Source: Thermococcus nautili
GTDB taxonomy: Archaea > Methanobacteriota_B > Thermococci > Thermococcales > Thermococcaceae
Reading direction: 5' to 3'
DNA length: 64,000 nt
Assembly (NCBI RefSeq): GCF_000585495.1
Contig: NZ_CP007264.1
Span: 620,001-684,000 of the forward strand
The notes under the pieces were generated by a model that was not told the origin of the DNA, did not search any database, and was given only the letters and a program-made list of their open reading frames with translations. A program made the translations under genes and the position numbers. Positions 6,459 to 23,225 of the stretch are shown here, piece by piece. The number at the start of each line of letters is the position of its first letter. The stretch's first letter is position 1.

Positions 6459-6526
6459 CGAACATTTTTATATTATTGGCCCGTAAAAGGCCGTGTTGAG
6501 TTTCAGTGATTTCAACGGTGACACCT

Positions 6527-7048
6527 ATGCCAGGCGGAAGCTGGGAAAAGATAATCTCAATGACGAAGGATGGAATCAAGAGTATAGGCATGATTAAGCG
6601 GAAGTCCAAGCGCGGGAAGAAGATAGCCCTTCTCATTGACGGGCCGAACATCCTGAGGAAGGAGTTCGGAATAAAGCTCGAAGACATCGTTGATGTTTTA
6701 GAGAGCATCGGAGACATCCGCGTTGCGAAGGTTATCCTCAACCAGTACGCCCCCCAGGGCCTCATAGAGGCGGTCTCGAATCAGGGGTTTGAGGCCGTTG
6801 TCGTTTCCGGCGAGACCGGGGTAAAGCTTGCCGTTGAGGCCATGCGCGAGATTTACAACCCCAACATAGACGTAATCGCCCTCGCGACGCGGAACGCGGA
6901 GTTTCTGCCGGTTATCCTCAAGGCCAAGGAGAAGGGGAAAGAAACGGTCGTCATCGGCGTCGAGCCCGGCTTTTCGGTTGCCCTCAAGCACGCGGCCGAT
7001 TACACCATAGTTCTTGAGCCCAAGAGAGAGGGGAGGGAAGAGGAGTGA
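6527..7048 (+). CDS. NYN/PIN-like domain protein (DUF88, TIGR00288 type), copy 1, acidic residues altered
   Basis: A 173-residue protein of the archaeal NYN (LabA/DUF88) family, whose fold resembles PIN ribonucleases. It keeps the first acidic motif, LLIDGPN (D38). Where the next gene has DTD and RDAD, this one has ETG (E96, G98) and RNAE (N123, E125), so several metal-binding acids are replaced. It may be a non-catalytic partner. The ATG at 6527 follows GGTGACACCT, which is better than the in-frame GTG at 6506. TTTTTATATTATTGG near 6465 is a good TATA element. Its stop overlaps the next start (GTGA), so the two are probably co-translated. Confidence 0.85.
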
Positions 7049-7527
7049 AGGAAACGCTCATCAAGGTTCTCAAGCGCGAGAAAGAACCGGAAGAGGAGAT
7101 AAGCGGTAAAAGCATCGGGCTCATAATAGACGGACCGAACATCCTGAGGAAGGAGTTCGGAATAAAGCTCGAAGACATCGTTGAGGCCCTTGAGAGGCTC
7201 GGTCGGATAAGGGTCGCGAAGGTCGTTCTGAACCAGTACGCTCCCCAGGGACTCATCGAGGCGGTCGTCAACCAGGGGCTTGAGCCCGTTATAGTCGCCG
7301 GCGACACCGACGTGAGAATAGCGATAGAGGCCATGGAGCTCATCTACAACTCCGATGTTGATGTTATAGCACTGGCCACGAGGGACGCGGATTTTCTGCC
7401 CATAATCCAGGAGGCGAAACGGAAGGGGAAGGAAACCATAGTCATAGGCACCGAACCCGGCTTTTCTGTGGCCCTTCAGAACGCTGCTGACTACGTCATC
7501 AAGATGGTTAGCAAGGTAGAGGAGTGA
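7045..7527 (+). CDS. NYN/PIN-like domain protein (DUF88, TIGR00288 type), copy 2, complete acidic set
   Basis: A 160-residue paralogue of the preceding gene, aligned without gaps over about 130 residues. It has the full acidic set expected of a NYN-type metal-dependent nuclease: D29 (IIDGPN), D87 and D89 (GDTDV), D114 and D116 (RDADF). The GTG start overlaps the stop of copy 1. Tandem duplication followed by loss of acids in copy 1 suggests an active/inactive heteromer. The RNA substrate is unknown. The family is known to be widespread in Archaea, but its role is not established to my knowledge. Confidence 0.87.
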
Positions 7528-8928: not shown

Positions 8929-9453
8929 ATGAAGTACTTCGTCGTTGTTTCGTACGATGACGACGCCGAGCGAAAGCGCGTTGATTACCTGCTCTCCAAG
9001 TGGGCGGAAAGGGCGGACGTTGAGAAGCCCAGGGGGATGACGTTCATCATCGAAACAGAACAGGAGAAAGAGTTCTTCGAGGAGCTGTTCTCCAGGATAG
9101 AGGGCAACCCTTCAGAGAAAGTCAGGATTTACCGTGTAACCGAGGAATGGCCCGAACTCAGGAAGCGGAGCGCGACGAGGGAATATCTGCTCGCGGAGGA
9201 AGAGGGCTTCGTTCGAAGGTTTCTAGCGTACCTGTGCTCCAAGCTCGGAGGAACGTTCAGCCCAGAAGAAGGAACCTGCGAAGTCTACACAAGGAAAGGA
9301 AGGGGTGTAATCCAGTTTTCCCTTAGAGGAACACCGAGGGGAACCGTTGTCAGGGTCACGGTCTCGGGCTACGGCGAGGTCGTTGACTACCTCCTCTCGC
9401 GTGTGGATGAGGAGCTAAAACCTCTGGCGGGTGATTCCTATGGGACTCTTTGA
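8929..9453 (+). CDS. Unknown protein, first gene of the ESCRT/kinase operon
   Basis: A 174-residue soluble, charged protein that I do not recognise. Residues 1-80 alternate strand and helix (MKYFVVVSYDD ... FIIETEQEKEFFEELFSRI) in a ferredoxin-like pattern. Residues 85-170 form a second alpha/beta part with two Cys (LCSKLGG, GTCEVY) and a strand-rich end (GVIQFSLRGTPRGTVVRVTV). There is no signal peptide or membrane segment. It opens the operon behind a strong TATA box and overlaps the next start by 14 nt, so its product should be made together with the coiled-coil protein that follows. No function can be given. Confidence 0.8.
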   Translation: MKYFVVVSYDDDAERKRVDYLLSKWAERADVEKPRGMTFIIETEQEKEFFEELFSRIEGNPSEKVRIYRVTEEWPELRKRSATREYLLAEEEGFVRRFLAYLCSKLGGTFSPEEGTCEVYTRKGRGVIQFSLRGTPRGTVVRVTVSGYGEVVDYLLSRVDEELKPLAGDSYGTL

Positions 9454-11287
9454 AGAAGGAGACGCGAACTGCGTTAAGACACTCCTCCGCCCCGCTGAGC
9501 GTGTTCTGAGGCTCGGAACCGACGTTTGGCGGGAGAGCTACGGAACCAGGGCAGACCTCTGGGGAAGAATCGTTGAAGCCTACAACCGCTACCAGGAAGG
9601 CGAGTGCGGGGACTTTCTGCGCGACCTCGACAGACGCTTCAGGGCCAAGTTTGAGGGAGCACTCGCGTTGCTCGCCTGGTCCTTCGAGCGGAACGGAGAA
9701 GACTTCGAACCAGCTAAAAAGAGGTTCACCCCCGAGGAGCTGACCGCAATAGAGAGGCTCTTCCGCTACAACGTCTTCGAGATTTACTCCAAGGACGACA
9801 TCATGAAGCTGATAATGCACAGGGACAACGAGGTTCTCTCACTCCTCAGGGAGTATTACTCCTTTGACAGATGGCTCCAGGAGTTCCTTCAGAGCCCAAG
9901 GCACGGCCTTGCCCTCAGGGACTTCCTGAAATCGACGTGGGACTCGTACAAGGAGAAGATAAACCTCGCGATAGCCGAAGCCACCGCACGTTTCGACTGG
10001 TTCAGAGACTTCCTCGAAGAGGCCAAAAAGGAGACAGAAGCCGTTGAGAGGATTTACAGGAAGAAGCTCGACGAGAAGGAGAAGGAAGTCGAGAAACTCA
10101 GGAAAGCGATGGAGCTCATCCGCGAGCGCTGGTACGAGGAGATAGAGAAGGCAAAGGCAGAAATCGAGTCCGCCAAGAGGGAGGAAATAGAGGCCCTCAG
10201 GAGGAAAAACGAAGAGCTCAGAAGGCGCTTTGAGGAGGAGAAGGCCAAGCTCATCGAGGAAATAGCCAGAATGAAGGACGAGGAGATGAAGGCCAGACTT
10301 GAAGAGGAGCTCAGGAAGGCAGAGGAAAGGATGAAGGCAGAGGTTAGGGCCCTTGAGGAGAAGCTGAGGAGAAGGGAGCTTGAGCTGAGGCAGAGGGAGA
10401 TGGAGCTCAGGAGGAGAGAGCTTGAGCTGTCCAGGGCAGAAGAGGAAGTCCGGAAACGAATAGAGGAAGCCATGAAGATGGTCGAGAAGGCGGAGAAGGG
10501 CTCACGCTTTATCAGGAGCGATGAAGCGAGGATAATGGAGATGAACTTCGCCGGTAGGATTAGGAGCAAGCTGAGCGGCGAGCTGAAACTCCTCGGGAAG
10601 ACCTTCAAGGTCGAGTCCGTTGAGGAGAGGGAAACCTTTGACCGCTCCAGGTACGCTGGAAAGCTCGACGAGGTCGCGCTCAAGAACGTTCCAACCAACG
10701 TCGTTGTTGAGGCAACGCTGAAGGAGAAGAAGCTCCTCGGAAGGAAAGAGAGCCTAACCCTGAGGGCGGTCTACCTTTCGAGGCCCGAGCGCTACGCGGA
10801 GTACGGCTTCGATACCGACCCGGTCGAGCTCGCCGAGCTGAACGCGCTCCTCGACGACGCGAGGAAAGCGAAGGAGAGGACGGTCCTGCTCGTTGCATCG
10901 CCAACCGGTTTCGAGAAGAGGATTCTCAGCTACGTTGCCTCAGATGATTTCCACAGGAACTTCGTGGCCGATAGGGTCTCTCTGCTCCTCCTCGACCTCG
11001 GTTCGGGTGAGATGATTCACAACCCCAACGACCCCTACGCGAAGGCCTTTGCCCCTCTCCTCAGGCTTGAGTTCGACGAGGAACTGCTTGAGAAGGCCAG
11101 GAGGTTCCTTCTCAACAGGCTGGCCTACAAGCACTACGTCCGCTTTGACGAGGCCATCAGCGAACTCGACCTGCCGGTTGAAATCGTGAGGAAGGCTTTC
11201 CTGTCCCTCGGGAAGGAGGGCTACGTTGCCAAGTACGTGGAGGGCGTTGGATACGTCCTCGTTTCGAAGGAGTTTGGAGGTGAATGA
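9440..11287 (+). CDS. Long coiled-coil protein with C-terminal winged helix
   Basis: A 615-residue soluble protein. Residues about 1-175 are helical. Residues about 190-360 are an extended, highly charged coiled coil rich in EELRRRFEEEKAK-type heptads. Residues about 385-530 are an alpha/beta domain (LLLLDLGSGEMIHNPNDPYAK). The last about 70 residues (FDEAISELDLPVEIVRKAFLSL ... GYVLV) fit a winged helix. A coiled coil joined to a winged helix recalls adaptor parts of ESCRT systems (CdvB winged helix, ESCRT-II), so a scaffold role is inferred. I see no homology to CdvA. The ATG at 9440 follows GGGTGATTCCT. It overlaps the previous gene by 14 nt and ends 2 nt before the next ATG. Confidence 0.8.
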   Translation: MGLFEEGDANCVKTLLRPAERVLRLGTDVWRESYGTRADLWGRIVEAYNRYQEGECGDFLRDLDRRFRAKFEGALALLAWSFERNGEDFEPAKKRFTPEELTAIERLFRYNVFEIYSKDDIMKLIMHRDNEVLSLLREYYSFDRWLQEFLQSPRHGLALRDFLKSTWDSYKEKINLAIAEATARFDWFRDFLEEAKKETEAVERIYRKKLDEKEKEVEKLRKAMELIRERWYEEIEKAKAEIESAKREEIEALRRKNEELRRRFEEEKAKLIEEIARMKDEEMKARLEEELRKAEERMKAEVRALEEKLRRRELELRQREMELRRRELELSRAEEEVRKRIEEAMKMVEKAEKGSRFIRSDEARIMEMNFAGRIRSKLSGELKLLGKTFKVESVEERETFDRSRYAGKLDEVALKNVPTNVVVEATLKEKKLLGRKESLTLRAVYLSRPERYAEYGFDTDPVELAELNALLDDARKAKERTVLLVASPTGFEKRILSYVASDDFHRNFVADRVSLLLLDLGSGEMIHNPNDPYAKAFAPLLRLEFDEELLEKARRFLLNRLAYKHYVRFDEAISELDLPVEIVRKAFLSLGKEGYVAKYVEGVGYVLVSKEFGGE

Positions 11288-11288
11288 G

Positions 11289-11873
11289 ATGGGAATACGC
11301 GACGTTTTTGGAAGGAAGAGCACCGTTGAGAGGCTCTCCCTTAGAGAGCTCCAAGAGGAGGAAATTAGGCTCAGGAACAGGCTTGAGAGGCTGAAGAAGG
11401 ACATAAACGCCATAGAGAAGAAGAAAAAGGAGCTCTTCCAGCAGGGCATAGGCGCGGACAAGCTCAAGAAGAAGATGCTCGCTCAAGAAATCAAAAGCCT
11501 CGACATGGAGGAGAAGCTCAAGCTCAAGGAGTTCACGACGGCCCAGAAGCAGTACACCCTCATAAAGAACCTAATCGTCGTCAAGAAGTACGAGAAGGAG
11601 CTCCGCGAGGTAGGGGTCTGGGACAAGCTCAAGAAGGTCGAGCCCGGGGAGCTTGAGAAGGCCCTCATACGGATAAACCTCGACGGCAAGGAGTTCAACG
11701 AGATGGTGGAGAGCCTCAACAGGGTCTTTGAGATGGAGATAGCCGAGTTCGAGGAGGGCGAAGACGAGACCGAGAGGGAGCTCTTTGAGGCCTGGGCCCA
11801 AGTTGAAAGCGGTGAAGCGGAGCCGGACGAGGTTGTGGAGAAAGTTCTGAAGGCTGAGGCGGAGGAGGAGTGA
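11289..11873 (+). CDS. ESCRT-III/Snf7-like coiled-coil protein 1
   Basis: A 194-residue almost all-helical protein. It starts MGIRDVFGRK, a short amphipathic lead-in as in Snf7 proteins. A long helical hairpin follows (about 15-95, very Lys-rich), then shorter helices and a strongly acidic end. This basic-then-acidic layout and length are those of ESCRT-III subunits (CHMP/CdvB). The last 20 residues (ESGEAEPDEVVEKVLKAE) resemble the tail of the next protein and could be the AAA-ATPase docking site. The ATG follows GGAGGTGAATGAG. Assignment rests on pattern and on the neighbouring MIT-AAA ATPase, not on a search. Confidence 0.62.
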   Translation: MGIRDVFGRKSTVERLSLRELQEEEIRLRNRLERLKKDINAIEKKKKELFQQGIGADKLKKKMLAQEIKSLDMEEKLKLKEFTTAQKQYTLIKNLIVVKKYEKELREVGVWDKLKKVEPGELEKALIRINLDGKEFNEMVESLNRVFEMEIAEFEEGEDETERELFEAWAQVESGEAEPDEVVEKVLKAEAEEE

Positions 11874-11874
11874 C

Positions 11875-12456
11875 ATGGGGCTTCTCTCAAAGTTTTTTGG
11901 ACCGAAGAACCCTCTAGACGTTCCCCTCAAGGACCTGCTTGAGAACCAGATGAAGCTCGAAGCCCAGATTGAGAAAATCGAGCGCGAGCTCAGGGCGATA
12001 GAGGCCGAGATAGCGGAGCTCTTTGAAAGGGCAAAGAAAGCCAAGAGCAGGAGCGAGGAGCTCACGATAGCGACGAAGATAAAGACCCTCAACAAGCGCA
12101 AGAAGAACCTCCAGGCAACGCACGCCCAGCTGAACAAGCAGTTGATGCTCGTCAGCAACCTGCTCATCATCAAGGAGAACGAGGAGCTCCTGAAGGGAAC
12201 GCCAACCTGGGAGATGCTCAGGAAAATGTCTCCGAAGGAGCTTGAGGAGAAGCTAATCGAGATGGAGCTCGACGCCAGGAACTTCAACGAGAGCCTTGAG
12301 AAGATGCTCGGCATGACCGACAGGACGATAGGGGTTGAGGACTTTGAGGCCGACGAGGAGCTTGAGGAGATACTGAGCACAATAAGGGCTGTCAAAGAGG
12401 GCGAGCTTGAACCAGAAGAGGCCACGAAGAAGGTCGTCGAGGAGGAGACGGAGTGA
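11875..12456 (+). CDS. ESCRT-III/Snf7-like coiled-coil protein 2
   Basis: A 193-residue helical protein, clearly a paralogue of the preceding one. The N-terminus MGLLSKFFGPK is a good amphipathic membrane-insertion helix, like that of CHMP4/Snf7 (MSVFGKLFG). Long helices about 18-105 include a Lys-rich KTLNKRKKNLQ segment. A region with MELDARNFNESLEKML matches INLDGKEFNEMVESLN of the paralogue. The acidic tail is EGELEPEEATKKVVEEE. It begins 1 nt after the previous stop and ends directly at the next ATG, so the three genes form one translational block. It probably assembles with its paralogue into membrane filaments (inference). Confidence 0.65.
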   Translation: MGLLSKFFGPKNPLDVPLKDLLENQMKLEAQIEKIERELRAIEAEIAELFERAKKAKSRSEELTIATKIKTLNKRKKNLQATHAQLNKQLMLVSNLLIIKENEELLKGTPTWEMLRKMSPKELEEKLIEMELDARNFNESLEKMLGMTDRTIGVEDFEADEELEEILSTIRAVKEGELEPEEATKKVVEEETE

Positions 12457-14076
12457 ATGCCGAGGAGGAGCCTTGAAGAGGACTTCGTTCGGAGGCTCAT
12501 CATCTCGATTTTCCTGATTGCCCTTCTCCAGGGCTTCGGGTTACTCATATCGCTCTTCATATTCCTGCCGTGGATTGAGAGGTTCCTGAGGGAGACGGGC
12601 TCCTGGAAGCCCTATCCCGGGCCCGAACCGGTTCCGAGGCCGATGCCCAGGAAACCGCACAGTAGGGGTCCAAATCGTGGAATCTCCCTTACGGACGGGC
12701 TGATTTTTGAGGCGCCGAAAAAGCTAATCCAGGGAGCTGAGGCGCTGATAAAGGTCGGTTTCAGGAACAGGACAGGGAAAAGCCTTCGCGTCTCGATAGA
12801 CCTGTCGGAGCTGGCCCTCTACGGAAAGCTGGAGAGGAGGACCCTCGACCTGTACCTCCTTCCGGGCGAGGAGAGGAGCGAGTACGTGCGCTTCGTGCCC
12901 TCGAAGGTTGGGAAGCACGCGCTTACCGTCCGCGTCCGCTCCGGGCCGTTTATGGGGAAGAAGGCCATTGAAATCGAGATTACCGGAGAAAAAGCCGGGG
13001 GCAACGGGTTGGAGGCCCTTCTGTCGAGATACGAGAGGGTCGAGCTAATTGGAGAGGGCGGCTTTGGCAAGGTCTACCGCGCCCTGAGGGACGGCCGGTG
13101 GGTCGCGCTCAAGGTTCCCCACGTCCTCAACGAGAGAACCGGAAAGCTCTTCCTGCGCGAGGTTTCCATATGGCGCGAGCTGAGGCACGGCAACATAGTG
13201 AAGCTCCACGACGCAAATCTGACGCCTTACCCCTACATAGAGATGGAGCTCTGCGACCGGTCGCTCGAAGACCTGGAGAAGCCCCTTCCGGCGGAGCGCG
13301 TGGCCGAGATAGCTTTTGAGGTAGCGGAAGGCCTGAAGTACGCCCACTCGAAGGGTATAATCCACCGCGACCTGAAGCCAAGCAACGTCCTCCTCAAGGG
13401 CTCCAAGCCGAAGATAAGCGACTGGGGGCTTGCGAAGGTTCTGTTCGAGAGCGGAACCACGACGGTAACGGCGATGACGCCCTACTACGCCTCGCCCGAG
13501 CAGATAAGTCCGTCGCGCTTCGGAGGGGTTGACGAGAGAACCGACGTATGGCAGCTGGGCGTTCTCATGTACGAGCTCGCGACGGGGAGGAGGCCCTTCG
13601 AGGGGAGCGACTTCGTCGAGGTCGCCGGGAGGATAATCATGGAGGAGCCGCAGAGGCCGAGCGAGCTTAATCCAGAGGCGAAGCCCCTTGAAGGAGTAAT
13701 CCTCCGCTGTCTGAGTAAGGAGAAGGAGAGGCGCTACGGAAGCGTTGAAGAGCTCCAGCGGGATTTGTCGGGAATCCTCGGCGGGAAGTACCGGGAAGAG
13801 CTCAAGAAGAGCGTCGAGCCCTCGCGCTCGGCCTACTACGCGGGCCAGCTGTTCCTCCTCCACCTGCGGCTCGGGGACGCGAAGGAGGCCCTGAAGTACG
13901 CGAGGGACCTGCTGAGGTACGCGAGGGGGAGGGAGAGGGAAGAGCTGGAGAGGCTCATCGAACAGATTGAGCTGAGGGTTGAGGAGGGGCTCCCCGTTCC
14001 GAGGGAGCTCGTTGAGAAGGGGGAGGTTGTTGTTCACGGAGTTGGCGGCAATCCGTCCAATTGCTCTCATTCTTGA
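12457..14076 (+). CDS. Membrane-anchored Hanks-type Ser/Thr protein kinase 1
   Basis: A 539-residue kinase. One or two hydrophobic segments lie at residues 12-42, with no cleavable signal. A Pro-rich linker and an Ig/CARDB-like beta domain (about 70-175) follow, then the kinase domain: glycine loop GEGGFGKV (from G199), ATP Lys K219, HRDLKPSN (D305), DWG in place of DFG (D322), YASPEQ as activation-segment end, and TDVWQLG. A helical tail of about 90 residues (GDAKEALKYARDLLRYAR ... EEGLPVPRELVEKGEV) also occurs in the two other kinases here. It lies between the ESCRT-III-like pair and the Vps4-like ATPase. Catalytic residues look complete, so an active kinase is expected. Confidence 0.92.
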   Translation: MPRRSLEEDFVRRLIISIFLIALLQGFGLLISLFIFLPWIERFLRETGSWKPYPGPEPVPRPMPRKPHSRGPNRGISLTDGLIFEAPKKLIQGAEALIKVGFRNRTGKSLRVSIDLSELALYGKLERRTLDLYLLPGEERSEYVRFVPSKVGKHALTVRVRSGPFMGKKAIEIEITGEKAGGNGLEALLSRYERVELIGEGGFGKVYRALRDGRWVALKVPHVLNERTGKLFLREVSIWRELRHGNIVKLHDANLTPYPYIEMELCDRSLEDLEKPLPAERVAEIAFEVAEGLKYAHSKGIIHRDLKPSNVLLKGSKPKISDWGLAKVLFESGTTTVTAMTPYYASPEQISPSRFGGVDERTDVWQLGVLMYELATGRRPFEGSDFVEVAGRIIMEEPQRPSELNPEAKPLEGVILRCLSKEKERRYGSVEELQRDLSGILGGKYREELKKSVEPSRSAYYAGQLFLLHLRLGDAKEALKYARDLLRYARGREREELERLIEQIELRVEEGLPVPRELVEKGEVVVHGVGGNPSNCSHS

Positions 14077-14090
14077 AGGAGGTGTATCAA

Positions 14091-15254
14091 ATGCCCGTTG
14101 ATTTGACAGGTCCGCTTATGGCGTCCTTCAGAAGGGCCAAGAAGGCCTACGAAAAGGCCCTAGCCGAGGGCGATTACGAGACCGCCAGGAGAAAGGCCCT
14201 TGAGTGCGCGAGGATTCTCAAACAGCTCGCCAAGCACGACCCCTACGGTAGGAGCTCCTACCTGGCAAAGGCAAGAAAGTGGGAAGACCTTGCTAAGGGT
14301 CTCGAAGAGGGAAGGATTCCGAAGAGGGAGGTCAAGGTAACCTCGGAGGGAACCGACGAGGATGAGCTAAGAACCTACGTCATGGGACTTATAGCAAGGT
14401 CAAACGTCAAATGGGGCGACATTGGAGGCCTTGAGGACGTCAAACGGCTCCTCATGGAAACGGTGGTCGTCTCGGCACTCCAGAGACCGGAAGCGGTTCA
14501 GCCCTGGAAGGGGGTTCTCCTCTTCGGCCCGCCGGGAACCGGGAAGACCCTGCTCGCTTCTGCTGCCGCCGGAAGTTTAAACGCAACCTTCTTCTCGGTC
14601 AAAGCCAGCAACGTCCTGAGCAAGTACTTCGGCGAGTCCGCGAAGATAATCTCGGCCCTCTACGAGGTCGCCCGCGAGAAAGCCCCGAGCATAGTCTTCG
14701 TTGATGAAGTAGATGCCCTCACAACCCGGCGCTCCGGCGAGACGAGCGAGGCCAGCAGGAGGATGCTCTCGACGTTTCTAGCGGAGCTTGACGGCTTTCA
14801 GGACAAGGGTAGCGACGTGCTCGTTCTAACCCTCGCGGCAACCAACACCCCCTGGGATTTGGACGAGGCGGTTCTCTCGCGCTTTCCGAGGAGGATTTAC
14901 GTCCCGCTGCCGGACGAGAAGGCCACGAAGGAGATAATCAAAATCAACACGCGCGGGCTCGACATAAGCAGGCTTGACTTGGACGCAATAGCCGAGGAGA
15001 GCGTCAGGCGCCTGTACTCGGGGAGGGACATCAAGAACCTCTGCCAGGAGGCGGTATGGAACATGATTCGCGAGGAGAACAGAGACCTCCACAAGCTCGC
15101 CGAGCTCCCCTACGAGGAGCTCAAAAAGCGCTCGCTCAGGACGAGACCGCTTGAGATGAGGGACTTCGAGGAGGCATTCAAGAAAATTAAGAGCCCGCTA
15201 ACGAGGAGAGATGTCGAGAGGTACGAGAAGTGGGCGGAGGAGTTTGGGGGATGA
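14091..15254 (+). CDS. Vps4/CdvC-like AAA ATPase with N-terminal MIT-like domain
   Basis: A 387-residue single-AAA ATPase. Residues 8-75 form three helices (FRRAKKAYEKALAEGDYETARRKALECARIL ...) in the pattern of MIT domains, which bind ESCRT-III tails. The AAA part begins VKWGDIGGLEDVKRLL, very like Vps4 and katanin. It has Walker A GPPGTGKT (K152), Walker B VFVDEVDAL (D205, E206), sensor-1 AATNTPWDLDEA and arginine fingers in SRFPRR, then Vps4-type C-terminal helices. Length is close to that of crenarchaeal CdvC. It follows kinase 1 after 14 nt with a perfect GGAGGTG site. Expected role: ATP-driven remodelling of the ESCRT-III-like filaments encoded alongside. A katanin/spastin-like role is the alternative. 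Confidence 0.85.
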   Translation: MPVDLTGPLMASFRRAKKAYEKALAEGDYETARRKALECARILKQLAKHDPYGRSSYLAKARKWEDLAKGLEEGRIPKREVKVTSEGTDEDELRTYVMGLIARSNVKWGDIGGLEDVKRLLMETVVVSALQRPEAVQPWKGVLLFGPPGTGKTLLASAAAGSLNATFFSVKASNVLSKYFGESAKIISALYEVAREKAPSIVFVDEVDALTTRRSGETSEASRRMLSTFLAELDGFQDKGSDVLVLTLAATNTPWDLDEAVLSRFPRRIYVPLPDEKATKEIIKINTRGLDISRLDLDAIAEESVRRLYSGRDIKNLCQEAVWNMIREENRDLHKLAELPYEELKKRSLRTRPLEMRDFEEAFKKIKSPLTRRDVERYEKWAEEFGG

Positions 15255-17581
15255 GAAAGGTTGAAATCGCAATTTTGCTCGTCTTCCTTCTCACGTTAAA
15301 CCCTGCTTTTGCCGTTACAATCGGGATAGACCTCTTCCACGGCGAGAATCCCAAGGGACTCACACCGATGACCTATAAGAATCAGACGCTCGCCCCTGGA
15401 ATGGTCGAAACGCTCAGCCAGTACACCTTCGTCTACTTTGGAAACGAGAGCTATCGGGACGAGCTGGGAATCCGCTGGCTGGGCAGGTCAATAACCCCGG
15501 GCCTGCTGGAAAACGTTGACGTCCTCATAATCGGACAGCCAACGGTCAACCTTTCAAGCGCCGAAATCTCGGCCGTGAGGGAGTGGTTCTATTCGGGAGG
15601 AAAGGTTCTGTGGGTTGCCGGTGATTCGGACTACGGAAACGGCGCCAAGACTCAAGAGATAGTGAACGGCCTGCTTGAAGCCCTCGGCGCACCCCTACGC
15701 CTTGACCTGTGCTCCGTTGAGGACCCTGTGAGCAACGCGGGAAGACCCTACCGCCCCATAGCCTACGACAGACCGAGCAACGATACCCCTTACAGGGTGC
15801 TTTTGATTCAGGGAGTGGCTTATGGCATCCTCGCGCACGGGCCCGGGCCGGTGGCGCTCTTCGCGAACGGCACTTGGAAGCCCCTGGGGGATGAAAACAA
15901 GCCTTCGGGGGTTTACATCATACTCCGGACGAGCAAAGATGCCCAAATCGTTGAGAACAGCGCACCCCCCGCGAAGGCTTACAGGGCGGGAGAAACCGGG
16001 GAATTCCCGATAGTGGCGGCATGGGTGTGGAGTTCGGGCAACAAACGGAGTGTTCTGATAGTCAGCGGCGAGACGCCCGTTGGGGGCTACGAGCCCATGT
16101 GGGTCAGTCAGTACTACGGTATCAAGCTCGACGGGCCAACCTTTGTCTCGAACGTAATCCACTGGGGCGTTACCGTTGCCTCACGTCCCCCTGAAAACAG
16201 GAGCTCACCATCAACAACGTTCACGACGGCCGCATCTCCAACGAACAACCAGGTTGTCCAGCCGTCGAGTTCCCAGCCCGCAACAACGAGTTTAGACGGC
16301 GTAGAAAAGAGCTCGCCGGTACCGGCCCTTCCTCTCGCACTCGGAGGTATTCTGGTGCTTCTCATCATTGGACTCGCCTTTCTGAAGGGCAGGAGCGGGG
16401 GTGAAAAAAGGGCCAACCTCAACGTCCCCGGATTTCCGCCGGAGCTTCTGGAGGGGTATGAGCCCCTTGAGTTCCTCGGGGAGGGCGGCTTCGCCAAGGT
16501 CTTCAAGGTCAAGCGCAAAAAGGACGGCAAAACAGTCGCCCTAAAAATCCCGCACCTAACTGAGAAGTCCAGGAAATCCTTCATTAGGGAAGTTCAGGCC
16601 TGGAACATGCTGGAGCATCCGAACATAGTAAAGCTCTACCGTGCGGAGGAGAAGCCGGCACCATACCTCGAGATGGAGTTCGTTGAGGGTGCTGAGGTTG
16701 ATGGGAAGCTCGTTAGAACTCTTGAGGAACTGCCAAAGCCCGTTGATGAGAAAACTGCCCTAGAACTCATCAGAGGCATCGCAGAGGGATTGAAGCACGC
16801 GCACTCGAAGGGCATAACCCACAGGGACTTAAAACCCGGAAACATTCTCCTGAAGGCCGACTTAACGCCGAAGATAACCGACTGGGGACTCGCGAAAATC
16901 GGAACACATTCAACGACCACCACCTCGGGGGTAACGGTTCTCTACGCCGCGCCGGAGCAGCTTGACCCCGAAACCTACGGGCGCACCGACCCCAGGACTG
17001 ACATTTACCAGCTCGGCCTCATCTTCTACGAACTCCTGACAGGAAAACTGCCCTACGGGGGGAAGGGCCCCGCAAGTGTAATCGCAAAGATTCTCAACCC
17101 AGAAATCAAGCCGAAACCGCCGAGTGCCGTTAGGCCAGAGCTTGCGAAGTACGATGGGCTCTTCGAGAAGTTGCTGGCGAAGAGGAAGGAAGACCGCTAC
17201 GAAAGCGTCGAGGAGTTTCTGGAGGACCTTAAGCTCTTGGAGAGGCTTGAAGGAGAAAGGGCCGACCTCAGAGGGCAGATTGAGGAGCTCAAGAAAACCA
17301 TCCAAGTAACGACGGACAGGTCGGAGGTTCAGAGGCTCGTCAGGAAACTCGTTGAAGGACTTGGGAGGAACGCGGTCCTTTCGGCGAGGCTCAACGACAA
17401 GGCAGGCCTGATTAGTGCGCTTGAGGAGCTCAAGGAGTTCACTCGGGAAGAAAGGGGAGAGGTTGAGCGGGCGATTGAAACCGTCGAGCTCCTCCTGAGG
17501 GAGGGTCTGCCGATTTCTCGGGAACTTGTTGAGAGAGTGGAAGTCCTTGTTGATAGGATTAAACGGGAGGTGGAGAGATGA
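15251..17581 (+). CDS. Receptor-type Ser/Thr protein kinase 2 with extracellular GATase-like sensor domain
   Basis: A 776-residue type I membrane kinase. The signal peptide is about residues 1-21 (ILLVFLLTLNPAFA). The extracellular part (about 22-310) contains VDVLIIGQPTVNLSSAEISAVREWFYSGGKVLWVAGDSD, an alpha/beta pattern like GldG/DUF4350 and glutamine-amidotransferase-like domains. A Ser/Thr-rich stalk and one membrane segment (about 361-382) follow. Kinase: GEGGFAKV (from G410), K432, HRDLKPGN (D526), DWG (D544), YAAPEQ, TDIYQLG. The C-terminal about 100 residues are the helical tail shared with kinases 1 and 3. The ATG overlaps the ATPase stop (ATGA) behind GGAGGAG, and the end overlaps the phosphatase start. 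The signal sensed is unknown. Confidence 0.9.
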   Translation: MRKVEIAILLVFLLTLNPAFAVTIGIDLFHGENPKGLTPMTYKNQTLAPGMVETLSQYTFVYFGNESYRDELGIRWLGRSITPGLLENVDVLIIGQPTVNLSSAEISAVREWFYSGGKVLWVAGDSDYGNGAKTQEIVNGLLEALGAPLRLDLCSVEDPVSNAGRPYRPIAYDRPSNDTPYRVLLIQGVAYGILAHGPGPVALFANGTWKPLGDENKPSGVYIILRTSKDAQIVENSAPPAKAYRAGETGEFPIVAAWVWSSGNKRSVLIVSGETPVGGYEPMWVSQYYGIKLDGPTFVSNVIHWGVTVASRPPENRSSPSTTFTTAASPTNNQVVQPSSSQPATTSLDGVEKSSPVPALPLALGGILVLLIIGLAFLKGRSGGEKRANLNVPGFPPELLEGYEPLEFLGEGGFAKVFKVKRKKDGKTVALKIPHLTEKSRKSFIREVQAWNMLEHPNIVKLYRAEEKPAPYLEMEFVEGAEVDGKLVRTLEELPKPVDEKTALELIRGIAEGLKHAHSKGITHRDLKPGNILLKADLTPKITDWGLAKIGTHSTTTTSGVTVLYAAPEQLDPETYGRTDPRTDIYQLGLIFYELLTGKLPYGGKGPASVIAKILNPEIKPKPPSAVRPELAKYDGLFEKLLAKRKEDRYESVEEFLEDLKLLERLEGERADLRGQIEELKKTIQVTTDRSEVQRLVRKLVEGLGRNAVLSARLNDKAGLISALEELKEFTREERGEVERAIETVELLLREGLPISRELVERVEVLVDRIKREVER

Positions 17582-18342
17582 GGCTAATACTGCCCGAAAA
17601 TCCATGCGTGGACTTCAGCGGGGCCGGAACTGACTTCGTTTACGGAATAACCCACGTTGGAGGACGAAAGCACAATGAGGACGGCCTGCTCATCATGAAG
17701 CTCCCCGACGGCTACTTACTTGCCGTTGCGGATGGACTGGGCGGCCACAACGCCGGGGAAGTCGCTTCTAGGCTGGCCCTGGAAACCCTTGCAGAGGTCT
17801 TTGGGGAGGAGTACGTTGAAGGCCTTGAAGAAGACCTTCTCGCGATTCTCCTGAGGAAGGCCCACGAGATTGCCCACTCCGTTGTTAGGGAGCGCGCAAA
17901 GGGGCCACTTGAGGGAATGGGGACGACCCTCGTCTCGGCCGTAGTTAGGGGAAGAACCGTTATCGTTGCCAACACCGGCGACAGCAGGGCGTACCTGGTT
18001 TCCAGGGGGAGGCTCGTCGCGAGGACGCTCGACCACTCACCACTTCAGGAGCTCGTCCTCATGGGGCAGGTAAGTGAGGAGGAAGCCATGTACCATCCAC
18101 TCAGAAACAGGGTGAGTTCTGCAATTGGGCGGCGTCTGATGGTTGACCTCTACCGCTGGGAGGTGGGGGCCAATCACATCCTCCTTCTCAGCACGGACGG
18201 CCTTCACGACTACGTTCCAAAGGAGGAAATCCTGCGGGCGCTCACCCCGGGGAAAACGGCACGTGACCTCGCCAAAACCCTCGTGGAAAGGGCCCTGCCT
18301 GCCACTGAAGACAACGTCACGGTGGTGGTGTGGAGATGGTGA
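17578..18342 (+). CDS. PP2C-family Ser/Thr protein phosphatase
   Basis: A 254-residue metal-dependent phosphatase, soluble and cytoplasmic. All PPM signature motifs are present: HVGGRKHNEDG near the start, AVADGLGGHNAGEVAS for the first metal Asp, GMGTTLVSAVV, VANTGDSRAYLV, LLLSTDGLHDYV, and TEDNVTVVVW at the end. Length is typical of bacterial PstP/Stp-type enzymes. The ATG overlaps the stop of kinase 2 (ATGA), and the next gene starts inside its last codons. It is therefore made in step with the kinases on each side and should reverse their phosphorylation of shared targets. Pairing with Hanks kinases is well known in Bacteria and less common in Archaea. Confidence 0.95.
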   Translation: MRLILPENPCVDFSGAGTDFVYGITHVGGRKHNEDGLLIMKLPDGYLLAVADGLGGHNAGEVASRLALETLAEVFGEEYVEGLEEDLLAILLRKAHEIAHSVVRERAKGPLEGMGTTLVSAVVRGRTVIVANTGDSRAYLVSRGRLVARTLDHSPLQELVLMGQVSEEEAMYHPLRNRVSSAIGRRLMVDLYRWEVGANHILLLSTDGLHDYVPKEEILRALTPGKTARDLAKTLVERALPATEDNVTVVVWRW

Positions 18343-21300
18343 GGAGATGGGCAGTATTCGTTGCGGTGTTGCTGTTAATATCACTCGTTCCACTAAGCCC
18401 GACTTTCGCCCAGTCCACTCAGGAGACCGCGCTTAGAATCGTGTACTTAACTGCCCAGGGCAGTCTCTTCACGGGCGTCTTCAACCCGTCCCCGAGCGGA
18501 ATGACCGACGTTTACACCCACCGCATCTGGTACTTCCTCAACGACCCGCCCTACGTGATGGGGCCCGACGGAAGCTATCACAGCTACCGCTGTCAGCTTG
18601 TCAGTGTCAATTACAACGTTCAGGTTCCGGACGATGCTGTAATCTGGAACGACACCCTCGGCGAGTGGACCTCCCCTTACGCTGGCAGAACTGCCAAGAG
18701 TGCCGTCACCTGGAAGTGTGGCCTTGGAACCTGGGTTGACGGCCAGAAGATAACCCTCGCCGACTACCTCTTCGCCTACGCAATGGACTGGGACTGGAGT
18801 CATGAAGGGGGAGCGTACTACGACCAGAGCTGGAGCGCCAGCGTGGCCGGCAAGCTCCAAGGAATCTACGGTCTCGAGGTGAAAGCCGTCACATCCGATT
18901 ACGTTGAGTTCACGGTCTACCAGGATTACGCAGTTCCATACAGCAGGTGGACCACCGCCGTTAACTACGTTCCCTACCCGGAGTTCCCCTGGCAGCTCTA
19001 TTATGCAGCCTCCGAGCTCGTGGCAAAGGGATACGGTGGCAAGGTGTTCTCGTGGAGCTCAAAGCCCACCAACGGGTACCAGCTCAACCTGATAGACGGG
19101 GAGCAGATGGAGTACATTTCGGGCATGCTCTCAAGGCTAAAGGATGAAGCCCCGATTCCGGACCCCCTGTCGGAGCTTTCAAACGTTCTCGGAAAATGGG
19201 GTCTGGACTACTACCACTCCGGCCTTCAGGATGCAGAAAGCGGGTACTCAGCCCTGATAAGCTGGATTTCAAACCACAAAAATGCCCTCGTAACCAACGG
19301 GCCGTACTACGTTGATGACTACAACCCCGGTGCAATGAGGCTCGTCCTCAAGCTCGCGAACAACAGAAGGGTTGGATTCCCGGACACCGTTAATGGTAAG
19401 ACCATCCCCTGGGAGCCGTACTGGAGAGAGATTGACGTTTACGGCGTTCTCAACGACTACACAGCTATCCTCTCCGTTGCTAAAGGCGAGTACGACCTGT
19501 ACTGGTTCACCAGACCTTATGGTACTTTGTCCAGTGTGGTCCAGGAATACGGCAAGAACATCAACCTAATCAAGGCTATCCCCACTTGGTGGAGCATCAA
19601 CCTCAACCTCGCAGGAGACCCCACGACAGGCCTCGTGGAAACCTCCAACGGAACCCGCTTCAACCCGTTCGCGCTCCGTGAGGTCAGGTACGCTATGAAC
19701 TGGCTCATCAACAGGCAGTACATCGTCAGCCAGGTACTCCAGGGAAGCGGAGCACCTCTCTACGGTCCAAACCCTACAGGCCAAGTTAACGCACACGAGA
19801 ATTACGTAACCGTTGCGAAGGCCATGGGCATAACCCCGCAGGGTGACGAGGCCTACGCCATCAAGATGATTGACGAGGCCATGAACAAGGCATCCTCGGA
19901 ACTCTCAGACCTAGGACACACCCTTGAGAAGAGGAACGGTGTCTGGTACTTCGACGGCGAGCCGGTTACCGTGAAGGTTATCGCCCGCGTTGAGGACAAG
20001 AGACTTGACGAGGGCAAGTACATTGCTCAGATACTCCAGAAGGCGGGCTTTAAAGTGGAGCTCATCCAGTGGCAGAGAACCCAGGCCAACAAAGCAGTTT
20101 ACAGCAGTGACCCAACCACCCTCCAGTGGCACGTTTACACGGAGGGATGGCTTGCAGGCGAAATTCGAGACGTTACGTCCCTTGCCCAGGACTTCTGGTT
20201 CTTCGACATCTACGTTGACCCGAACTGGGGTTCCAACTACCACAACCCGGTAACGGTCAGAGACGTTCTCAACGCTATCGCCAGCGGTGACGTTGCCAAG
20301 TTCATCAGCGAACTAAACCTCAAGTACTACAACACTCCAGATAAGCTCAAGCCGCTCCTCGACTGGACCGGCTACGACCTCGCCAGCCTGCTCGCTTACT
20401 CGAAGTGGACCAAGAACGGACTAACGGTAAGTATGTGGAACATCGACCAGTTCTGGGACCTCTACAAGCTCGCCTACGCACTCCACCTCTACAACTCCCC
20501 CAGAATCTACACGGCCGAGTTGTGGGACTTCTACATCACCAACAAGAGAGTGAAAGTTGGAATCCCCGACCCAGTTACGGGACTTGGAAGCTTCCTTGCC
20601 GTCCGTTCACTTGAACCCGCTGAAACATTGGTGTCAGGGGAAACAACGGGAACAGGAACAACGACTTCAACACCCTCACAGGTGCAGAGTGATAGGGGAA
20701 CAATCGAAGTAGTCTCCGCACCTGCAGGCGCTGAGGTTTACGTTGACGGAGGCTACCAGGGAATAGCGCCAATAAACGTCAGTGTATCCCCTGGGACGCA
20801 CAGGGTTCAGCTGAAGATGCCCGGCTATGAGGAGTACTCGACGACGGTCACGGTAGATGCTGGAAAAACCGTTGTTCTAAACGTAAACCTGGAACCCAAA
20901 TCCGGAACCCTAGTAGTTGACTCAACACCTTCGGGAGCCAGCGTTTACGTGGACGGCACCTACCGCGGGACTACTCCCCTGACCGTTGAGCTACAGCCGG
21001 GCAAGCATACGATAAACGTGACTCTCGAAGGCTACAAGCCATACATGGGGACAGTCAATGTTCCTCCAGGCGAAACCGTAAAGATAACGGCGAAGCTTGA
21101 GAAGAAAATCGCGACGGGGACGGTTTGGATAAATTCCCAGCCCACAGGGGCGGACGTCTACGTTGACGGCACGTGGCGCGGGACAACACCGCTGACGCTC
21201 ACCCTTCCACCGGGTACCCACACAATAGAAATCCGGAAGGAAGGTTATCAACCGACCAGAAAAACGGTTGACATTGCCCCAGGAGAAGAAAAGAAAATAA

Positions 21301-22673
21301 CGCTAACCCTCTCGGTGGTGACCTCTCAGGATACCCAACCGAAAACGACCAGCGAATCCACGCCGGCCAACGCAGTTCCAAGGAAGGCCATCGCAGGTGT
21401 TCTGGCCGTGTTCATCCTTGTTGGGGCGGTGTTCCTTCTCAAGCGCTCGCGCTCTGGAGGAAAGACCCAAAATGAGCCCTCCAAGGGTTCAATTGAGGGC
21501 TTCCCGGCCGAGCTCCTAGACAGATACGAGCCCCTTGAGTTCCTCGGAGAGGGCGGTTTTGCCAAAGTCTTCAAGGTCAAACGCAAAAAGGACGGCAAAA
21601 CAGTCGCCCTAAAAATCCCCAGAATCGACGAGAAAACCAGCAAGACCTTCCTCCGCGAGGTTTCAACGTGGTTCCAGCTCAACCACCCCAACGTCGTCAA
21701 GCTCTACGACGCGGACATCTTACCAGTTCCCCACCTTGAGATGGAGTTCGTTGAGGGTGCCAAGGTTGATGGGAAGCTCGTTAGAACGCTTGAAGAACTG
21801 CCAAAGCCCGTTGATGAGAAAACTGCCTTAAAACTAATCAGGGGAATAGCGGAAGGCCTAAAACACGCCCACTCGAAAGGCATCGTTCACCGCGACTTAA
21901 AGCCCGGAAACATCCTCCTCAAGTCAGACCTAACACCGAAAATAACCGACTGGGGACTCGCGAAAATAGGAACGATGAGCTCGGGAAGGAGCGTGATGGG
22001 CTACACCCCACTCTACGCCGCGCCGGAGCACCTGATGCCGAGCAAGTTCGGAAACACCGACCACAGGACAGACGTATGGCAGTTGGGGACGATTTTCTAC
22101 GAGCTACTGACCGGCAGGGTTCCGTTTGAGGGCTACACCTACGAGGAGGTCTTCGGCAAGATAACTGACGAGAACTACCTCCACAAACCACCCTCAGAGT
22201 TCAACCCGGCCCTAGCGAAGTACGATGGGCTCTTCGAGAAGCTGCTGGCGAAGAGGAAGGAAAACCGGTACGGAAGCGTTGAAGAATTCCTGAGGGACCT
22301 TGAGAAGCTCGAAGAGAGCGAGAGGCGGAAGCAGGAGCTCGGGTTCCAGGTTGAGGAGCTGAAGAAAACCCTCGCAAGAAGCGTGGAGGCTCTGAAGAGG
22401 AGCAAGACCGCCGAGGAAATCAGGGAGAACAGCAGGCTCGTAGTCCAAACTCTCTCGAAGCTCGCTTTAGCCTACGCGGAGCTCAACAGGAAGGCAGAGC
22501 TTCTCAACACCCTGAGCGACCTGAAATTCTATACAACCCAGCACAGAGAGGAGCTCGGGAGGGCAATTGAAGCCCTTGAGCTCATGATTAGAGAAAACCT
22601 GCCCGTAAGAGAGGACTTCGTTGAAAGGCTCAAGGTGCTCCTTCACGAGATAGAGCGTGAAAACGGGGTGTGA
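18336..22673 (+). CDS. Giant receptor kinase 3: solute-binding domain, three PEGA repeats, membrane segment, Ser/Thr kinase
   Basis: A 1445-residue fusion. Signal peptide to about residue 26 (LSPTFA|QST). Residues about 30-765 are an extracellular solute-binding domain of the oligopeptide/dipeptide class (SBP_bac_5; for example NGPYYVDDYNPGAMRLVLKLANN). Three PEGA repeats follow (about 787-1000), each with an AGAEVYVDG-like motif. One membrane segment is at about 1020-1040. Kinase: GEGGFAKV (from G1071), K1093, HRDLKPGN (D1187), DWG (D1205), YAAPEHL, TDVWQLG. The last about 100 residues are the tail shared with the other kinases. ATG 18336 is preferred, although GTG 18339 is possible. Ligand binding outside probably controls the kinase inside. 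Stretches are nearly identical in DNA to kinase 2, which suggests gene conversion. Confidence 0.93.
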   Translation: MVRRWAVFVAVLLLISLVPLSPTFAQSTQETALRIVYLTAQGSLFTGVFNPSPSGMTDVYTHRIWYFLNDPPYVMGPDGSYHSYRCQLVSVNYNVQVPDDAVIWNDTLGEWTSPYAGRTAKSAVTWKCGLGTWVDGQKITLADYLFAYAMDWDWSHEGGAYYDQSWSASVAGKLQGIYGLEVKAVTSDYVEFTVYQDYAVPYSRWTTAVNYVPYPEFPWQLYYAASELVAKGYGGKVFSWSSKPTNGYQLNLIDGEQMEYISGMLSRLKDEAPIPDPLSELSNVLGKWGLDYYHSGLQDAESGYSALISWISNHKNALVTNGPYYVDDYNPGAMRLVLKLANNRRVGFPDTVNGKTIPWEPYWREIDVYGVLNDYTAILSVAKGEYDLYWFTRPYGTLSSVVQEYGKNINLIKAIPTWWSINLNLAGDPTTGLVETSNGTRFNPFALREVRYAMNWLINRQYIVSQVLQGSGAPLYGPNPTGQVNAHENYVTVAKAMGITPQGDEAYAIKMIDEAMNKASSELSDLGHTLEKRNGVWYFDGEPVTVKVIARVEDKRLDEGKYIAQILQKAGFKVELIQWQRTQANKAVYSSDPTTLQWHVYTEGWLAGEIRDVTSLAQDFWFFDIYVDPNWGSNYHNPVTVRDVLNAIASGDVAKFISELNLKYYNTPDKLKPLLDWTGYDLASLLAYSKWTKNGLTVSMWNIDQFWDLYKLAYALHLYNSPRIYTAELWDFYITNKRVKVGIPDPVTGLGSFLAVRSLEPAETLVSGETTGTGTTTSTPSQVQSDRGTIEVVSAPAGAEVYVDGGYQGIAPINVSVSPGTHRVQLKMPGYEEYSTTVTVDAGKTVVLNVNLEPKSGTLVVDSTPSGASVYVDGTYRGTTPLTVELQPGKHTINVTLEGYKPYMGTVNVPPGETVKITAKLEKKIATGTVWINSQPTGADVYVDGTWRGTTPLTLTLPPGTHTIEIRKEGYQPTRKTVDIAPGEEKKITLTLSVVTSQDTQPKTTSESTPANAVPRKAIAGVLAVFILVGAVFLLKRSRSGGKTQNEPSKGSIEGFPAELLDRYEPLEFLGEGGFAKVFKVKRKKDGKTVALKIPRIDEKTSKTFLREVSTWFQLNHPNVVKLYDADILPVPHLEMEFVEGAKVDGKLVRTLEELPKPVDEKTALKLIRGIAEGLKHAHSKGIVHRDLKPGNILLKSDLTPKITDWGLAKIGTMSSGRSVMGYTPLYAAPEHLMPSKFGNTDHRTDVWQLGTIFYELLTGRVPFEGYTYEEVFGKITDENYLHKPPSEFNPALAKYDGLFEKLLAKRKENRYGSVEEFLRDLEKLEESERRKQELGFQVEELKKTLARSVEALKRSKTAEEIRENSRLVVQTLSKLALAYAELNRKAELLNTLSDLKFYTTQHREELGRAIEALELMIRENLPVREDFVERLKVLLHEIERENGV

Positions 22674-22676
22674 ACC

Positions 22677-23225
22677 ATGAAGTTCTGGAAATCCAAAGAG
22701 GAGAAAGAGATAGAAAGGAGGATACGGGCCAAAAAGGCAAAGATGGCCCTGAAACAGTACATAAACAACCTCGAAGCCTTAAAGCGCAGGGTCTTCCTTC
22801 AGGGAAAGGAAGCGGCGAAGCTCGGCGACGAGGAACTGCTGAGAAGAAGCGCCGTAAAGTACCTTGTCCTTGAGAATCGAATAAAGCAGGCGAAGCGCCT
22901 TCTCCTCCTCATGGAGGAGGCAGAAATCCAGAGGGAACTCGTTAAGGTCTCGGCTGAGTTCCTCCGCTTCAGCAGGGACATCGTTGAGAGCATTGCGGAG
23001 GGGCCCGGAGCAGAGGACGTTGCCAAGATGCAGGTTGAGTTCGAAAAGGCGATGGCGAAGGTTGAAACCCTCGACGAGGCTCTGAGTTCCATGCTCGACG
23101 TAACGAGCGAAAGCATCCTGAGCGGAAACTTTGACGAAGAAACGATAAAAGAGGCAGAGGCGTTCTTCGACGTAGAGCCCTCCGGAGAGAGGCTCAAAGA
23201 GATTGAGAAGGCTATGAGGGCTTAG
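22677..23225 (+). CDS. ESCRT-III/CdvB-like protein 3
   Basis: A 182-residue helical protein, last gene of the operon, 3 nt after kinase 3. The N-terminus is basic (MKFWKSKEEKEIERRIRAKKAK). A long hairpin follows with LQGKEAAKLGDEELLRRSAVKYLVLENRIKQAK, close to the GDEERARIYANELAEVR pattern of archaeal CdvB proteins. It continues with MQVEFEKAMAKVETLDEALSSMLD, typical of the second half of Vps2/Vps24-type subunits, and an acidic end. Of the three ESCRT-III-like proteins this has the most CdvB-like core, so it may cap or regulate the filaments. It lacks the shared EPEE tail of the other two. Its stop overlaps the convergent amidohydrolase by 14 nt. Confidence 0.65.
   Translation: MKFWKSKEEKEIERRIRAKKAKMALKQYINNLEALKRRVFLQGKEAAKLGDEELLRRSAVKYLVLENRIKQAKRLLLLMEEAEIQRELVKVSAEFLRFSRDIVESIAEGPGAEDVAKMQVEFEKAMAKVETLDEALSSMLDVTSESILSGNFDEETIKEAEAFFDVEPSGERLKEIEKAMRA

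Follow-up and report, generated by a model that had tools for sequence, protein, structure and literature searches.

Main-clade archaeal systems of the endosomal sorting complex required for transport (ESCRT) were described by Makarova et al. (2024, mBio, PMC10936438). According to the main text of that paper, they comprise Vps4, ESCRT-III, the components arCOG09748 and arCOG08177, membrane Ser/Thr kinases (STKs) and Ser/Thr phosphatases (STPs). The same text describes the STKs as membrane-associated proteins with Ig-like and C-terminal helical domains, names Thermococcales and Methanococcales among the carriers, and suggests that phosphorylation is key to Main-clade function. Here we analyzed a 64,000-nucleotide stretch of the Thermococcus nautili genome, referred to as the window (assembly GCF_000585495.1, contig NZ_CP007264.1, positions 620,001 to 684,000). 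Ten open reading frames (ORFs) on the + strand, at window positions 8929-23225, form a locus whose predicted proteins match the Main clade.

As in the Main clade, Vps4 and ESCRT-III occur together, and membrane STKs and an STP are part of the locus. ESCRT genes in the neighborhood, used by Makarova et al. (2024) as an alternative criterion for Vps4, were found as well. An earlier note on this DNA had proposed that ESCRT and Vps4 are joined to kinases and a PP2C phosphatase. This coupling is correct. It is conserved in Thermococcales and also in one contig from Methanothermococcus, but it is not new, having already been published. New relative to the main text of PMC10936438 are the near-confinement of the kinases to genomes with the locus, the expansion to many kinases, the swapping of sensors and the mosaic DNA; an OppA-like sensor is a further difference from that text. 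The words "sensor" and "recombination" are absent from its main text, and the expansion may partly stand in its figures or supplements. We assign a probability of about two in three to the reading that this is a Main-clade ESCRT operon with modular receptors and with membrane remodeling probably switched by phosphorylation.

Three other systems invite comparison. With CdvB/CdvC of Sulfolobales the locus shares the predicted ESCRT-III hairpin fold and the combination of AAA with Vps4_C; unlike them it has kinases and a PP2C in the operon and no sequence-recognizable MIT domain, and the genome carries FtsZ-family genes. A precedent for a Ser/Thr kinase acting on ESCRT-III is ULK3 in human abscission control (PMC4475061). 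ULK3 uses MIT domains, whereas the kinases in the window have an unrelated C-terminal helical domain instead. VARTIG, a hypervariable surface-protein locus of Thermococcales that recombines between species, is centered on a large Ig protein (PMC8416519). Hypervariable surface proteins and inter-species recombination are common to both loci, which belong to the same order, but kinases and ESCRT go unmentioned in the VARTIG text. By Pfam, no large Ig protein is encoded among the ten genes, although the VARTIG profile arCOG07710 itself was not searched.

Predicted components of the locus

The ten same-strand genes of the earlier note were all found at their coordinates, with neighbors that overlap or lie at most 14 nt apart. 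The gene maps are based on ORF calling done in this analysis, with refined starts at 9440 (coiled-coil gene, an ATG), 11289, 14091 and 15251. Since 18 other Thermococcales have core-gene orthologues arranged in this order, the ten ORFs are taken to be real genes. Gene order was also examined as a point on which the proposal could have failed: the frame is kept across Thermococcales, though kinase content varies greatly.

Three of the proteins had been read as Snf7/CdvB-like, and this stands for two of them. The AlphaFold2 model of E2 (11875-12456, 193 aa), computed from a 30-sequence alignment with a mean predicted local distance difference test score (pLDDT) of 75, is a long helical hairpin (residues 18-54 and 59-101), so that the ESCRT-III hairpin fold sought among the helical proteins is predicted for this gene. 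In Foldseek, its best eight matches were all CdvB2 or Asgard ESCRT-IIIB filaments with probabilities of 0.96-0.99; their E values were 0.14-0.39, none below 0.1, which makes this an argument from ranking. E2 matched Pfam Snf7 at E 0.0045 (17.1 bits, under the curated cut-off of 27.3). E1 (11289-11873, 194 aa) had no Pfam Snf7 match of its own; it is homologous to E2 (hhalign 98.8%), and the two were co-aligned. From remote homology and the model, E1 and E2 are classed as ESCRT-III-type. The third protein, E3 (22677-23225, 182 aa), is a candidate ESCRT-III-like helical protein with a Snf7 match at E 0.013 (15.7 bits, under the same cut-off) and a weak profile similarity to E2 (hhalign 31.6%). 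It is highly conserved within the order, with 75-96% identity to 15 relatives in the alignment. In PDB profile searches, the E1/E2 profile met CdvB at E 5.5 at best and E3 met nothing.

The Vps4-type AAA ATPase (14091-15254, 387 aa) matched Pfam AAA at E 6.3e-39 and Vps4_C with 33.6 bits (cut-off 21.3). Vps4_C was present in 26 of 26 aligned relatives, and the motifs GPPGTGKT and DEVDA are intact. The closest Vps4 match beyond Thermococcales-like contigs came from Methanothermococcus (62%); after the first few matches, the genome-wide Vps4 scan returned mostly Cdc48-type AAA proteins. A second Vps4-like gene of T. nautili lies outside the window near a Cdc48-type gene (G000:C1:722603-723658; L002, L093) and is 53% identical. 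No ESCRT genes stand beside it, which fits the published "solo Vps4" of Thermococcales.

The first two genes encode proteins A and B. Protein A (8929-9453, 174 aa) opens the locus in 19 Thermococcales and in the Methanothermococcus contig and had no Pfam or PDB match. By size, order, description and context it fits arCOG08177, for which the main text of PMC10936438 gives a Cas2-like N-domain plus a TBP/DUF3568 fold. Protein B (9440-11287, 615 aa), a long coiled-coil protein with no Pfam match, fits arCOG09748 by size, order and description; in the same text arCOG09748 has an N-terminal helical domain, a coiled coil and a C-terminal winged helix. Orthologues of B at E<=1e-30 were found in 39 of the 94 genomes of the order. 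In genome G020, a natural fusion joins an E2 orthologue to a homologue of the B N-terminus (L086:7397-9322, E 6e-36), which supports a physical linkage of the B N-domain and ESCRT-III. The same genome is without Vps4, kinase, PP2C or the rest of the locus.

The genome has three Pkinase matches, all inside the locus, and all three Hanks-type Ser/Thr kinases have complete catalytic motifs (GxGGF, AxK, HRDLKxxN and DWG, the last replacing DFG). K1 (12457-14076, Pkinase E 1.6e-47) consists of one N-terminal membrane segment (residues 18-36), an Ig-like region, the kinase and a C-terminal helical domain; its Ig-like region and kinase are predicted to lie on the same side, inside the cell. K2 (15251-17581) is of receptor type, with a signal segment, an outside domain, a transmembrane segment (360-378), a Pkinase match and the C-terminal helical domain. 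Its outside domain gave a weak ABC_transp_aux/GIFT-like match and no relative in the PDB search. K3 (18330-22673, about 1447 aa, Pkinase E 3.5e-46), also of receptor type, is built of a signal segment, an OppA-like peptide-binding domain, three PEGA domains, a transmembrane segment, the kinase and the C-terminal helical domain. Its sensor matched SBP_bac_5 at E 2.2e-20 in addition to the three PEGA stretches, and almost all of it (residues 10-742 in the stretch used for the search) aligned with PDB 7fi3 at E 4.6e-129. This entry is annotated as a dipeptide/oligopeptide transport protein, and we take it to be OppA of Thermococcus kodakarensis. Because of this match, oligopeptides are probably the likeliest ligand of K3. 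The view that three membrane-anchored kinases take up signals from outside is thus retained for K2 and K3 and dropped for K1, which has no predicted outside domain.

The C-terminal helical domain is common to the three kinases (hhalign 99.5% between the K1 type and the K2/K3 type), and its AlphaFold2 model has a pLDDT of 94. By analogy with the "PCI" domain proposal in PMC10936438, its binding partner may be B or the filament. Its assignment as an MIT domain was rejected (hhalign to the Vps4 N-domain at most 4.5%, no MIT among the Foldseek matches listed), and a match to ArnA/ArnB (8s05, E 0.67) was too weak to be used. The PP2C-type Ser/Thr phosphatase noted in the operon (17578-18342, 254 aa) was recovered at PP2C_2 E 1.8e-16 with intact motifs (NEDG, DGxGG and GDSRA), and it is the sole PP2C_2 match of the genome.

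Distribution, expansion and exchange

ESCRT-III was found in 39 of 94 Thermococcales genomes. Co-occurrence was counted over the 74 good genomes, 34 with and 40 without ESCRT-III; these counts and the mosaic data below come from one order. A Hanks kinase was present in 33/34 genomes with ESCRT-III and in 2/40 without (G021 and G057), and a PP2C in 32/34 versus 5/40. A hand count over 12 complete or near-complete ESCRT-positive genomes placed 58 of 67 Pkinase matches in the locus or within about 4 kb of it and the remaining 9 elsewhere. Hanks kinases of Thermococcales are therefore nearly confined to genomes that have the locus. The Methanothermococcus contig keeps part of the frame, with A first and a kinase and a PP2C present. 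A contig binned as Archaeoglobus (L115, JACDNU010000045.1) carries a Thermococcales-type locus with a Vps4 of 74% identity, by transfer or misbinning. In one assembly (G049, C35 and C55), two copies of the locus were found whose E2 proteins are 96% (near that of the window) and 69% identical; the assembly may have two loci, or its bin may be mixed.

The smallest loci (G002, G070 and G086) have eight genes in the order A-B-E1-E2-K-Vps4-PP2C-E3, and the kinase of one-kinase loci matches K1 best among the kinases of the window. The largest loci fetched exceed 40 kb; they encode numerous kinases together with pentapeptide/ion-channel proteins and additional PP2C fusions, and a second Vps4, 59-64% identical, is frequently present. 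This paralogue stands directly 3' of E3 in several expanded loci (L064:12084-13223, L068:13416-14564, L076:7903-9057 and others). Pentapeptide-repeat proteins with an ion-channel domain were seen within several ESCRT loci (L069:11862-12986, L085:6091-8925), and in five genomes a HepT-like/nucleotidyltransferase pair of toxin-antitoxin type is inserted between B and E1 (L096:3981-4824 and four further loci). Some loci encode a 665-aa soluble kinase that is not in the window (L065:1196-2119 and relatives); its N-terminal region is MIT/TPR-like, below threshold (MIT E 7e-4), and in most loci that have this kinase it is followed by a PP2C membrane fusion. Profile comparison gave no support for this MIT-like region, and its full-length matches were kept as a lead. 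A search for MIT by Pfam across the genomes was discarded, as many unrelated ORFs gave sub-threshold matches at about 20 bits.

The kinase adjoining E3 was compared in ten genomes. Identity of its kinase half is 73-94% in nine of them and about 50% in the tenth (G055). The N-terminal half, with the sensor, is often unrelated; among the genomes it goes from a related sequence to one that gives no match. Across the loci, sensor types include PEGA arrays, beta-propellers, LamG/DUF2341, sialidase-like CBM, TPR, macro and OppA-like domains.

At the DNA level, identity to genome G022 alternates along the locus. It is 91-92% in the flanks and in the K3-kinase/E3 block, 67% in A-E2, 94.5% in K1, 84% in Vps4 and 91% in K2-PP2C, and blastn gave no comparable DNA match in G022 for the K3 sensor. 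The 92% block begins at 21495 on the + strand, the codon of K3 residue 1056 and the start of the K3 kinase domain. The same pattern is seen at fourfold sites, which selection on the protein does not affect. At this junction their identity is 0.26 upstream (a partial match) and 0.69 downstream; elsewhere it is 0.74-0.81 in the flanks, 0.26-0.38 in A-E2, 0.89 in K1, 0.48 in Vps4, 0.85-0.93 from the K2 kinase to PP2C and 0.69-0.71 from the K3 kinase to E3. In comparison with a second genome (G018), fourfold identity reaches 0.80-0.83 for PP2C and for the OppA/PEGA sensor in full, and 0.41-0.56 for the downstream flank. The alternating DNA and fourfold identities are accounted for by recombination between species and not by differences in protein selection alone. 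Sensor and kinase segments have thus been exchanged between species as a recombination mosaic. Upstream of the locus, two small paralogous genes lie side by side in the window (6506-7048 and 7045-7527).

Proposed function and alternatives

All functional steps that we propose for the locus are ones that we infer. E1 and E2, and probably E3, would assemble on the cell membrane as ESCRT-III filaments, which the Vps4-type ATPase would take apart and recycle, with A and B serving as putative adaptors. K2 and K3 would sense outside signals, probably oligopeptides in the case of K3, and K1 would tether a kinase to the inner face of the membrane. The three kinases may phosphorylate the filament subunits or the adaptors, and the PP2C would reverse this. 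Each species could exchange sensors by recombining within the shared kinase domains and so tune its own inputs. The most likely output is regulated budding of vesicles or tubules, or else repair of the membrane; it is preferred to division since FtsZ-family genes are present and 40 of the 74 good genomes are without ESCRT-III. A role beyond division is plausible, given the three tubulin/FtsZ-family genes of the T. nautili genome.

Several results weigh against this assignment. The ATPase N-domain (residues 1-80) had been called MIT-like, and while the Vps4 identity of the protein is upheld by AAA and Vps4_C, the MIT part did not stand in a sequence test that controls pass. It had no match to Pfam MIT even at E 10, a test that gave 7e-11 for Desulfurococcales CdvC and 1e-12 for Asgard Vps4; its profile did not score above shuffles against the CdvC/Asgard MIT, and the PDB search with it returned no MIT. 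The MIT identity of this domain is unproven. E3 is weakly placed in ESCRT-III by its sequence, and it was not found in the loci of G018 and G042 (L066 and L096), given which it may be dispensable. No recognized ESCRT-III-binding domain was found in the kinases, their C-terminal helical domain had no confident PDB match in Foldseek, and the kinase domains could act on other substrates. Finally, the Fisher test for the co-occurrence of kinase and ESCRT-III (p 1.7e-17) ignores shared ancestry.

A more far-reaching version, which we hold as a tentative possibility, sees the locus as an evolvable receptor island. Hypervariable receptor kinases, exchanged between species, would recognize cells, viruses or nutrients and trigger ESCRT-driven budding or sealing.

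It appears unlikely that the locus serves recognition or conflict, in virus defense, self/non-self discrimination or interaction with other cells, with hypervariable surface sensors setting off shedding, sealing or death of the cell by means of ESCRT. Its patchy presence (39/94 genomes), the inter-species mosaic with its sensor swapping, the lectin-like, beta-propeller and PEGA sensor domains and the HepT/nucleotidyltransferase pairs of five loci would suit such a system, and VARTIG sets a precedent for recombination of surface proteins between Thermococcales species. The kinase domains also resemble defense-system kinases in PADLOC. These PADLOC matches, however, reach only the generic kinase or AAA domain, and A, B and E1-E3 match no defense family there, so that filing the locus as a defense system was rejected. 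Moreover, the OppA-like sensor points to nutrient or peptide sensing, and the locus in the window has no toxin effector.

Similarly unlikely, in our judgment, is that kinases and PP2C form an environmental signaling hub with targets mainly elsewhere, the adjacency to ESCRT resulting from an island that travels and expands as a unit. The kinase number runs from one to many per locus around a constant ESCRT core, nine of the 67 counted kinases lie elsewhere, and G021 and G057 keep a kinase without ESCRT-III. Such a hub fits poorly with the co-occurrence (33/34 versus 2/40), with the kinase and phosphatase standing within the ESCRT gene order even in the eight-gene form, and with the kinase and PP2C of the Methanothermococcus locus. 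A back-up division machine of the CdvB/CdvC type is very improbable, for although the ESCRT-III fold is nearest CdvB2 and the ATPase is of the Vps4 family, the genome has three FtsZ-family genes and ESCRT-III, not found in 40/74 good genomes, is dispensable for division in the order.

Implications

Control of ESCRT by phosphorylation is known in eukaryotes. With the machine, the kinases and the phosphatase in one archaeal operon, a link from outside signals to membrane remodeling becomes testable at a single locus, and the swapped sensors provide natural experiments in which the same kinase is joined to a different input. If the idea of the receptor island is true, the locus would be a prokaryotic receptor-to-ESCRT pathway whose receptor pool is shared and shuffled. 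The findings also bear on why some FtsZ-bearing archaea retain an ESCRT set while close relatives manage without one.

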